DNA from: Candidatus Pseudothioglobus aerophilus
GTDB lineage: Bacteria > Pseudomonadota > Gammaproteobacteria > PS1 > Pseudothioglobaceae
DNA: 39,449 nucleotides
NCBI GenBank assembly: GCA_014384565.1
Contig: JACNFO010000034.1
Coordinates: 34,852-74,300 of the forward strand
Direction: 5' to 3'
Under the pieces are notes generated by a model that saw nothing but the letters and a program-made list of their open reading frames with translations, ran no database searches and was not told the origin of the DNA. Below are positions 1-3,662 of the stretch, piece by piece (position 1 is the first letter of the stretch; each line of letters opens with the position of its first letter). The position numbers were made by a program, and so were the translations under genes.

Positions 1-177
1 AAGCCTGCTGCTAAGACTGAAGCTGCTACTGAAGAAAAGAAGCCTGCTGCTAAGAAGCCTGCTGCTAAGAAGCCTGCTGCTAAGAAGCCTGCTGCTAAGA
101 AGCCTGCTGCTAAGAAGCCTGCTGCTAAGAAGCCTGCTGCTAAGAAGCCTGCTGCTAAGAAGGCAGATACTGAATAA
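1..177 (+). CDS. rpsB: Probable 30S ribosomal protein S2, C-terminal tail (5' truncated)
   Basis: An open frame enters from the left edge and stops with TAA at 175-177. The 58 visible residues are almost only Lys, Pro and Ala, with a few Glu, Thr and Asp, built from repeats of the pentapeptide KPAAK. The S2 identity is inferred from position: the reading frame ends 33 bases before tsf on the same strand, and rpsB-tsf is a nearly universal bacterial pair. The conserved S2 fold lies outside the window, so it cannot be checked here. S2 normally ends in a short variable tail; a strongly basic tail of this length would be unusual and resembles the tails of histone H1-like proteins. A different basic protein inserted before tsf is the alternative. 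Confidence 0.6.
   Translation, partial: KPAAKTEAATEEKKPAAKKPAAKKPAAKKPAAKKPAAKKPAAKKPAAKKPAAKKADTE
40..162 (+). repeat. In-frame 15-bp tandem repeat encoding KPAAK
   Basis: Eight identical 15-base units (AAGCCTGCTGCTAAG) run head to tail from 40 to 159, plus one extra AAG codon. A further unit at 1-15 is separated from them by a diverged TEAATEEK stretch. Every unit uses the same codons, which points to recent slippage or unequal exchange rather than old selection on sequence. The 15-base period keeps the frame whatever the copy number. Confidence 0.95.
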
Positions 178-210
178 ATAGCTATACAAAGTATATATAG
201 GAGATAAATT

Positions 211-1136: not shown

Positions 1137-3662
1137 CTACATACTGGCCTTATCTTTAATAATCAGCTTCATTATTGCCGGCATCAAAAAAAAGTCTGCC
1201 AATACTGCTACCAAAATTGCACTAGCTGTTAAAACGCCAAAGTCAAACATGTTGTTCATTTGAGAAAAGGTCAGCACAAGGAAGCCAAGAGCAAGGACTA
1301 TAGAAGTTAGTGTAATAGCTCTTCCAGTGCCAAGCAATGTAAGCCTTACTGCCTTATCAACATCATTATATTGAAGCTCATATCTTCTAAAGTTATGCAT
1401 AAAATGAACAGTGTCGTCCACTGCAAGTCCAAGTGCTATAGCACCAATCAACAAGGTAAACATATCAAGAGGCATTTTAAAGACAACCATAATTGTTGAA
1501 AGAAAAATTATGGGCAAGATATTTGGAATCATACTAATAAGGCCAATTTTTACGTTGCCAATTAATAGCACCATAAGAATAGTTATTAATGAAAAGGCAA
1601 GAACATAACTAAATGCACTACTATAAATTGCCTCTTCAAAGGTTACTGTCATCAGAGTTCCAATGCCAGTGAAAGTAACTTTAGCAAGAGGGCCAAACTT
1701 TTGGTCTAAGTAAACCTGTGCATTGTCTATAAAAATATTAGCTTCAAGTGAGTCAATAAAAGGGGTTTTAAGGGTTAGCCGAGCTTTAGAATAATTTGCA
1801 TCTACAAGGCTCGAAAGGTCGTCATTACCGCTGCTTTCAAAAAGCAAAAATTCCTGAGCAATCAGATCAGGGTCTTCAGGAATAGCATAATACTCTTCAC
1901 GATTTTCGTTTAGCGCTCTATTTGTTTCCTTAATAACATCAATATAACTAATAACTTTGCCAACAAACATATTTCCTGTTGAGATAGAATTTATGTTTTT
2001 AGAAACATCATCAATTACCCTTAAAAGCTCTGGGTTATAAAGCCCGTTTGTTTCTCCAGTGTCAATAATAACTTCAAGCGTTAGGGAGCCCTTAAGATTT
2101 TCGTCAACCGCCTCCGTTGCGACGCGCGCAAAGTTATCTTCTGGAAGCCATTGAAGTGGAAAATGGGAAAACCTAAGTTGTGAAGCGACAATAGCTGCGC
2201 AAATAATTAATACAGCACTTACCGACACTATAAGTTTTGGGCGTCCAGTTGCGAACACACTTATTCCAATAAGAGACCTATCCATTAGGGTTTGGTCTTC
2301 TTTATCTGAGTTCGTCTTAAGGGTTTTAACTCTAGTTATAGATATTAAAGCAGGCAGAAAGATGAGAGTAAAAACCAAGCCAATCATTACGCCGCTGCTA
2401 GCAAAAACACCAAGATCGGCTACGGGTGCAACTCCCGAAAAAGAGAAGGACCATAAGCCAACAGCTGTAGTAATAGAGGTCATTATAATTGCTAGACCAG
2501 AGTGGCCCATTGCATACCTGAGGGATGCTTTCTTGTCATTTGTTTTTGAAAAGTCCTTATAAAAAACTGCCAGCAAATGTATAGATGCACTAGTCACCAC
2601 TGCCAACAAAAAGGTTGGCATTATTTGGGTAGCCATTGTAAAAGGAGCTGAAAATACCGACATTAATGAGACGGTTGTTATAAGGGTAAGAGAGACGCAG
2701 GCTAATGGTAATATAACGCCTGAAATACGCCTAAATAGAGCAAACAAAACAACCATAATAACAATCATCATTAAGCTAATAAAAATAACTGAATCATTCA
2801 TTAGGGCTTGCTTAAAAATCCCTGCAATTGCAGCAGAGCCTGACAAGTATATTTCAAAATTATCTCCATCAAAACGCTGCATGATGCTCTGGGTTTTTGC
2901 AATTATTTCGTCGTTCTCAGCATCAGTTAAATACACCCTCTGCCCGCCCAAGCTATCATCATCAAACTCTAGGCCATCATCAAACTCTAGGCCATCATCA
3001 AACTCTAGGCCATCATCAAACTCTAGGCCATCATCAAACTCTAGGCCATCATCAAACTCTAGGCCATCATCAAACTCTAGGCCATCATCAAACTCTATAT
3101 TAACTGGCTCATTTGACAACCCATCGTTAGAGTATGTTTCTGTGTCAATCGTAACAGTAGTCATAGTAAAGTCTTCACTGTAAAGTGAGTTTTCATAGAG
3201 ACTGTTGCTAATGACTGTTTCTTTTAGTTTGAATAATTCACCCTTAGTTTCTGGGAGGCTGACAATTAAGGGCTCAACAATTAACTCACCCTCGATTCCA
3301 TAAGTATTTCTTGCATTTATTAGAGAGTCAACGCCTTTAATATTTGGTAGCTCGTTCTCGAGAGCATCATGAAAGCTATCAAGCTTCTTTAAAAAACTTA
3401 AGTCAAAAATGTTTTCAGTTTTAACAGCGATCATTAGCTTTTCATCTCTGCCAAACTGGTCTCTAAATATATCGTACTCAACGCGCATTGGGTCTGATTT
3501 ATGTAAAAACCCTTCGGTGGTTGTATCAATCTTTAAAGATGGCAATTGCGAGCCAAGAGCAGTCACAAGAAGAAAAATAATTAGTATTGTTTTCTTGGCG
3601 TTATCAAAAAGCCAATCAGAAAATAGCTCGATCTTTGCTTCAGTTTTTGTTCGCCAATTCAT
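1137..3662 (-). CDS. RND/MMPL-family exporter with an acidic hexapeptide repeat
   Basis: This 841-residue membrane protein belongs to the RND superfamily, 'predicted exporter' MMPL type. It has one N-terminal membrane segment (about residues 25-42), a large periplasmic loop, five or six clustered segments (about 285-445), a second membrane segment and loop, and a final cluster (about 680-835). The two-fold organisation is typical of single-chain RND pumps such as those moving lipids, hopanoids or sterols. The segment GLAVDDTVHF near the C-terminal half matches the conserved acidic stretch of the proton-relay helix. Residues 190-237 are a run of EFDDGL repeats in the first periplasmic loop, which the family does not normally have. 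No fusion or outer-membrane partner is adjacent, and the substrate is unknown. No clear Shine-Dalgarno site precedes the ATG. Confidence 0.85.
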   Translation of the reverse strand: MNWRTKTEAKIELFSDWLFDNAKKTILIIFLLVTALGSQLPSLKIDTTTEGFLHKSDPMRVEYDIFRDQFGRDEKLMIAVKTENIFDLSFLKKLDSFHDALENELPNIKGVDSLINARNTYGIEGELIVEPLIVSLPETKGELFKLKETVISNSLYENSLYSEDFTMTTVTIDTETYSNDGLSNEPVNIEFDDGLEFDDGLEFDDGLEFDDGLEFDDGLEFDDGLEFDDGLEFDDDSLGGQRVYLTDAENDEIIAKTQSIMQRFDGDNFEIYLSGSAAIAGIFKQALMNDSVIFISLMMIVIMVVLFALFRRISGVILPLACVSLTLITTVSLMSVFSAPFTMATQIMPTFLLAVVTSASIHLLAVFYKDFSKTNDKKASLRYAMGHSGLAIIMTSITTAVGLWSFSFSGVAPVADLGVFASSGVMIGLVFTLIFLPALISITRVKTLKTNSDKEDQTLMDRSLIGISVFATGRPKLIVSVSAVLIICAAIVASQLRFSHFPLQWLPEDNFARVATEAVDENLKGSLTLEVIIDTGETNGLYNPELLRVIDDVSKNINSISTGNMFVGKVISYIDVIKETNRALNENREEYYAIPEDPDLIAQEFLLFESSGNDDLSSLVDANYSKARLTLKTPFIDSLEANIFIDNAQVYLDQKFGPLAKVTFTGIGTLMTVTFEEAIYSSAFSYVLAFSLITILMVLLIGNVKIGLISMIPNILPIIFLSTIMVVFKMPLDMFTLLIGAIALGLAVDDTVHFMHNFRRYELQYNDVDKAVRLTLLGTGRAITLTSIVLALGFLVLTFSQMNNMFDFGVLTASAILVAVLADFFLMPAIMKLIIKDKASM
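2957..3096 (-). repeat. 18-bp tandem repeat encoding EFDDGL within the RND exporter
   Basis: An 18-base unit (CATCATCAAACTCTAGGC on the plus strand) recurs with exact period; the AAACTCT core starts at 2964, 2982, 3000, 3018, 3036, 3054, 3072 and 3090. On the coding strand it gives seven EFDDGL units and an eighth, diverged EFDDDSL. The copies are identical at the nucleotide level, so the array is recently expanded and probably variable in length between strains. It also creates spurious long open frames on the plus strand. Confidence 0.95.

Follow-up and report, generated by a model that had tools for sequence, protein, structure and literature searches.

The window analysed here, a stretch of 39,449 nucleotides (G000:C20:34852-74300) from a 1.47-Mb genome in 62 contigs, begins with a lysine-rich coding repeat. 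This raises the question of which gene carries the repeat, how the repeat varies among relatives and what a protein tail of this kind may do. The closest named relatives of the genome are SUP05-cluster bacteria, and the organism is a marine SUP05-type bacterium with a small genome.

The first-pass annotation had named the gene as probable rpsB and had proposed following the contig leftward. A Ribosomal_S2 domain (PF00318) was found just outside the window, directly upstream on the same scaffold (G000:C20:34071-34712, E = 1.6e-89). The match scores 298.3 bits against a cut-off of 26.1 and covers positions 1-215 of the 216 in the profile, which makes the product a member of the uS2 family; it also matches TIGR01011 (E = 9.5e-94). 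An Rfam t44 element (RF00127), which we take to be the rpsB leader, precedes the gene (L001:1371-1463, 48.3 bits against a cut-off of 44). The S2 core and the leader bear out the naming as rpsB, and a gene other than rpsB is ruled out by the Ribosomal_S2 match in the same gene. The next open reading frame, presumably tsf as judged by its position, confirms the rpsB-tsf order and places the lysine-rich tail directly before tsf, as had been described (Table 1). A tsf homologue adjoins rpsB in 61 of the 65 loci used for trees.

Table 1. Features of the rpsB-tsf region, in positions of the window
Feature	Position	Strand	Basis
rpsB 3' end: last 58 codons of the visible S2 tail and TAA stop (175-177)	1-177	+	ORF reading, PF00318, 88-N gap; 5' part outside the window
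KPAAKTEAATEEK, a single copy of a higher-order 39-base unit that occurs repeatedly in the close relatives L002 and L003	1-39	+	
Eight uninterrupted codon-identical KPAAK units (AAG CCT GCT GCT AAG)	40-159	+	TRF, codon count, run length
AGGAG, likely ribosome-binding site of tsf	199-203	+	Sequence; inference
Presumed tsf, elongation factor Ts, 292 aa	211-1089	+	ORF; position

Read in frame 1, the visible tail consists of KPAAKTEAATEEK, (KPAAK)8 and KADTE before the stop, with a net charge of +15. It contains KPAAK nine times, and eight of these copies form the tandem run. TRF delimits the array at 37-162 (period 15, 8.4 copies, 100% match), far above chance, and both the identical units and the long, basic character of the tail were thus found as first described. 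The KKPAAKK pattern has eight matches in the assembled genome, all of them in the rpsB tail, and the notion of KPAAK as a genome-wide motif was dropped.

The S2 gene has 239 readable residues, followed by an 88-N scaffold gap (L001:2194-2281) that ends where the window starts. Because this gap lies inside the tail, the visible tail is partial and the whole tail is longer than what is seen; a gap of exactly 88 bases is not divisible by three and would break the reading frame, and its length is thus only an estimate if the gene is intact. Of the 61 family loci, four (L013, L019, L021 and L056) have a contig end within the S2 tail, besides the gap in the window genome, and KPAAK-type arrays seem to break assemblies. 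The existence of the array is confirmed; the count of eight in the window genome may be wrong.

A search of 29 genomes of the genus returned an S2 match in 24. The window's own locus in this set (L085) is gapped and three others are cut by a contig end (L096, L104 and L105), leaving 20 complete tails. The comparison of copy number among relatives, also proposed at first pass, showed that in these 20 other genomes, read in nominal frames, the longest uninterrupted KPAAK run varies from 0 (L084, L097 and L100) to 7 (L095, in the single-contig genome G002), with 6 in L086 and L089. L003 has six uninterrupted units, and the window's run of eight is the highest among the genus tails compared. The tail is in frame with rpsB in relatives, and its length changes largely by whole 15-base and 39-base units. 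The rpsB core of the window genome shares 96.6% nucleotide identity with that of L002 and 94.1% with that of L003, and the 900 bases past the stop are 96.8% identical between the window genome and L002. In L002 (from L002:3179) and L084, the array is thrown out of frame by an apparent one-base deletion, which is either a true frameshift or a sequencing error; the resulting open frame encodes SLLLR repeats and closes shortly beyond the normal stop. The L084 tail equals that of L002, and its run of 0 arises only because the array is frameshifted, with a long run in the shifted frame. Apparent frame changes inside the tail, seen in L002 and L012, are counted against a role of the tail in RNA binding.

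All units are one and the same 15-mer in the window (all nine visible units), L002 (11 of 11, in the shifted frame), L003 (10 of 10) and L007 (4 of 4), whereas the KPAAK peptide is encoded by mixed codons in L009, L010, L011, L012 and L017. This pattern across relatives indicates a recent expansion of the array, which agrees with what had been proposed from the identical codons of the window. The KPAAK peptide is kept while codons differ between units, which points to selection on the peptide. Mean unit identity is 0.947 within genomes vs 0.865 between genomes (16 loci with at least three units). In a shuffle test the observed within-genome identity was reached in 0 of 1000 shuffles; related loci are not independent in this comparison, and the choice of KPAAK-only units hides non-synonymous change. 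As a comparison of sequences, it shows homogenisation and peptide retention, and not a measured strength of selection.

A second perfect array is present at window positions 2957-3097 (18-base unit, 7.8 copies, EFDDGL), inside an open reading frame at 1137-3662 on the minus strand that encodes an MMPL-family protein (PF03176, E = 7e-25). The EFDDGL pattern was matched in 11 of the 29 genus genomes, with six overlapping matches in the window genome vs one or two in the 10 others. This array, too, is longest in the window genome among the matching genus genomes.

The family set comprised 61 loci within L001-L081 with core identity over 80%, four of which are cut in the tail. The 55 complete tails (L001 and L002 set aside) range from 31 to 138 residues, with a median of 87; the tail of 138 residues is that of L050, where the reading frame continues through N beyond the terminal module, and the longest clean tail has 134 residues (L035). 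The tail has shrunk to 35 residues in two Vesicomyosocius genomes, and L006 has a single KPAAK. A tail that spans 31 to more than 130 residues, with one KPAAK in L006, indicates that neither length nor copy number is held to a set value. Net charge ranges from 0 to +24 (median +7) and is positive in 53 of the 54 complete N-free family tails, L001 and the frameshifted L002 being set aside.

In most sister genera, a conserved stretch of about 40 residues closes the S2 tail (mean column identity 64% over 32 rows). This conserved module lies outside the window and is the more interesting and surprising part of the comparison. The first-pass reading of the tail was right in gene identity and is plausible in the function that it suggested, possible contact with rRNA, mRNA or nucleoid DNA, but it missed both this module and the scaffold gap inside the tail. 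The module is present in 34 of the 61 family loci. At the level of the order, 45 of the 83 genomes have it (45 of 54 outside the window genus and 0 of 29 within it), and the idea that the window genus shares the folded module was dropped on that count. It stands at the S2 end in all 30 of the 45 genomes for which loci were returned, and the match in G041 lies in a 32-residue frame that looks broken.

A search of the class (369 genomes) gave 11 module matches, of which three are family members and eight are weaker (E = 1.9e-8 to 0.0066), and a recognisable S2 core was absent from all eight non-family loci. One of the eight, L145 (E = 4.1e-4), is judged by its sequence to be presumably the N-terminal part of Rho. 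Another of the eight is the module-like sequence (E = 1.9e-8) in genome G351 at L144:3-254 on the minus strand, in an 84-residue frame that is cut by a contig end and lies beside a presumably trmD-like gene. This frame has an FFSRLFGR stretch near its start and no Pfam match.

Of the 32 modules scanned in isolation, 18 show a Pfam Rho_N match at E <= 0.1 (best 2.9e-5) and one shows a Pfam SAP match (6.5e-5). Neither the Rho_N nor the SAP cut-off was reached by any of the ten full-length S2 proteins scanned; the Rho_N (PF07498) scores of L047 and L040 are 16.8 and 15.0 bits, respectively, against a gathering cut-off of 24.9, and L060 gave no match to either family at E <= 0.01. The AF2 model of the module is a confident helix-loop-helix (pLDDT 90.2) with helices at residues 7-12, 15-25 and 35-42. 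Foldseek on this 43-residue model ranked T4 endonuclease VII first (E = 0.09) and the Rho N-terminal domain (1pv4_E) fifth (TMq 0.78, probability 0.89, E = 1.5). None of the matches had E <= 0.001, which is unsurprising at so short a length. The module profile found no credible match among PDB sequences by hmmsearch; the single match (E = 3e-4), to an unrelated lipoprotein, was pieced together from two weak halves and was disbelieved. On these profile matches and the predicted fold, the module is read as Rho_N/SAP-like and not as a proven member of Rho_N.

Phylogenetic analysis groups the window genus as one clade (support 100/99, 18 rows). A careful tree, built after leaving out the four cut tails and two distant outgroups, has L060, which bears the module, branching outside the window genus and the rest (92/79), and a quick tree leans the same way. 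This placement implies gain of the module at the family root followed by loss in the window genus. An AU test starting from the quick tree preferred the topology in which all family members other than the window genus form one clade (p = 0.81), which allows a gain after the split from the window genus. The window genus may therefore have lost the module or may never have had it. The module is absent from the complete tails of L054, L057, L058, L064 (truncated module) and L038, and these absences are probably separate losses. Three of these loci (L057, L058 and L064; two Vesicomyosocius and one Ruthia) have shortened S2 tails, and related Ruthia and Ruthturnera genomes keep the module, which gives a natural loss series in symbiont genomes.

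Substitution ratios (pN/pS) are 0.385 in the linker, 0.213 in the terminal module and 0.060 in the core (79 pairs, with L001, L002, L012, L020, L050 and the cut tails left out); the pairs were chosen at >= 60% tail identity, and the linker value is biased low because of this choice. Over all pairs without the identity filter, pN/pS is 0.391 in the module (32 rows) and 0.086 in the core (30 rows). The tail evolves faster than the core, which is counted against the RNA-binding reading. In the AF2 model of the L003 S2 protein, residues 231-329 all have pLDDT below 50, in a model whose core is also poor (whole-model mean 54.8), and DSSP on this weak model (from 17 rows) assigned no secondary structure past residue 233. 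The arm is probably intrinsically disordered, as far as such a model can indicate.

S2 tails are variable across the class. Past residue 226, the tails of the best-scoring 30 of 182 class genomes with S2 have a median of 41.5 residues (15-159); these 30 are mostly acidic, and several contain K/A-rich blocks. Most non-family S2 tails sampled are acidic or near neutral overall, which also counts against an RNA-binding arm. Many of 20 further class tails have K/A-rich blocks, in a set biased by its selection for long frames. In L163 and L193 the tail finishes with a second kind of small S2 module, a helix-hairpin-helix (PF14520); the E-values are 4.5e-6 and 7.2e-5, respectively, and only the first of these matches passes the cut-off. 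A 228-residue S2 tail was observed at L189:514-1197 on the minus strand, and a part of it that is not of low complexity has no Pfam match at E <= 0.01. A published survey, in the portions at hand, places S2 among three bacterial ribosomal proteins with more than 100 orthologs bearing low-complexity regions (PMC6821194). Together with the variation in the class, this indicates that the tail of the window belongs to a known kind of feature. The S2 regions described in those portions of the survey include no KPAAK array, SUP05-clade bacteria or Rho_N-like module at the S2 end (PMC6821194). No paper on this S2 tail was found within one open-access library.

A ribosomal core with an added C-terminal part, as found here, is also represented by PRK14537 (a fusion of L20 with an unknown domain), PRK12278 (L21), PRK12311 and the sunset-variant S2. 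The similarity of the L047 module to the end of PRK14537 is weak (E = 0.039), and the helix-hairpin-helix module of L163 and L193 can be aligned to the end of PRK12278 as well as to that of PRK12311. None of the four models was over its cut-off for the S2 proteins scanned; against the 710 bits set for the sunset-domain S2 (NF051451), L003, L029, L059 and L047 score 274.1, 272.6, 279.7 and 255.1 bits, respectively. Unlike these proteins, the window genus has a linker only, and the module of the sister genera is Rho_N/SAP-like.

AlgP and PhaF, in the sections available of PMC9239181, have C-terminal, predicted disordered regions of tandem Lys-Pro-Ala-Ala units, the number of which varies in AlgP. 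The window tail likewise consists of C-terminal tandem KPAA units, whereas it is attached to a ribosomal S2 core, has the 5-residue KPAAK period and lacks an N-terminal domain of the AlgP/PhaF type. The tail had also been called histone-H1-like, and this description holds for composition and fails for family membership, as the window tail scores 21.7 bits against the histone H1-like model NF038053, for which the cut-off is 80 (E = 1.9e-4). The best HC2 (PF07382) score among ten S2 proteins is 25.4 bits against a cut-off of 40, and the HC2 match of L035 (E = 1.7e-5) is under the curated cut-off.

The tail may be a disordered polycation arm of uS2 that gives the 30S subunit non-specific affinity for RNA and drifts in length by slippage, a reading to which we give about an even chance. 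In the excerpts consulted, uS2 is located behind the 30S hinge; the binding of bS1 depends on it, and it may shield the Shine-Dalgarno helix (PMC10931766). A flexible arm would hang from uS2 behind the head/body hinge, near the Shine-Dalgarno helix and the docking site of bS1, and with a net charge of at least +15 at that site its most likely target would be RNA. Such an arm could add non-specific electrostatic affinity for mRNA, for rRNA in late assembly or for the rpsB leader in autoregulation. Copy number would drift by replication slippage because only charge and flexibility would matter. KPAA peptides bind DNA in vitro, according to the part of PMC9239181 at hand, and the Rho_N/SAP-like helix-loop-helix that tips the arm in sister genera would fit a nucleic-acid-binding role. 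The tail as a substitute for a missing or shortened bS1 was dropped, since all 10 genomes tested encode a full-length bS1; the arm would thus add to bS1 and not replace it. A bolder proposal, which is unlikely, is that uS2 of the SUP05/Pseudothioglobaceae carries a nucleic-acid capture arm, with a variable KPAAK linker and in most genera a Rho_N/SAP-like tip, which would keep mRNA or a transcript still being made close to the mRNA exit site, next to bS1; in the window genus the arm would then be a bare expanded polycation.

The main rival to the RNA-binding arm is neutral slippage, a real but minority possibility in which the solvent-exposed C-terminus of S2 tolerates the growth and shrinkage of an Ala/Lys repeat without function. 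The spread of tail lengths from 31 to more than 130 residues, with only 35 in the two Vesicomyosocius genomes, is consistent with such drift, as are the codon-identical arrays that fresh slippage would give and the second perfect array in the MMPL-type gene, which is also longer in the window genome than in its relatives. However, nearly all tails (53 of 54) are net positive, the KPAAK peptide survives synonymous turnover, the arm is retained in small genomes and most sister genera have a conserved folded module at its end.

A tether is quite improbable: a KPAA-type arm would bind DNA or polyphosphate as in AlgP and PhaF and would link ribosomes to the nucleoid. The disordered C-terminal domain of AlgP, with its variable number of KPAA repeats and its DNA-binding repeat peptides (PMC9239181, in part), and the compositional matches of L035 to HC2 and of the window tail to NF038053 are in its favour, whereas every HC2 or H1-like match is under its curated cut-off and the tip module of the sister genera is no less similar to Rho_N than to SAP. 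As S2 is on the ribosome, the nearest polyanion would moreover be RNA. An assembly artefact, in which the scaffold was broken and joined inside a mis-sized or spurious array, would account for the gap abutting the visible tail, the four contig ends inside family tails and the one-base problem in L002, but is very improbable given the like arrays in other assemblies, including the seven uninterrupted units of single-contig G002 and the six of L003.

If the RNA-binding arm works as proposed, then the arm with its tip, the bare arm and the shortened arm would form a natural series among free-living and symbiotic relatives. This series would inform the role of ribosomal-protein tails in small-genome marine bacteria, and the conserved tip would be a concrete, testable addition to the ribosome. 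If the tail is neutral, it would cleanly illustrate how an essential ribosomal protein can tolerate in-frame slippage.
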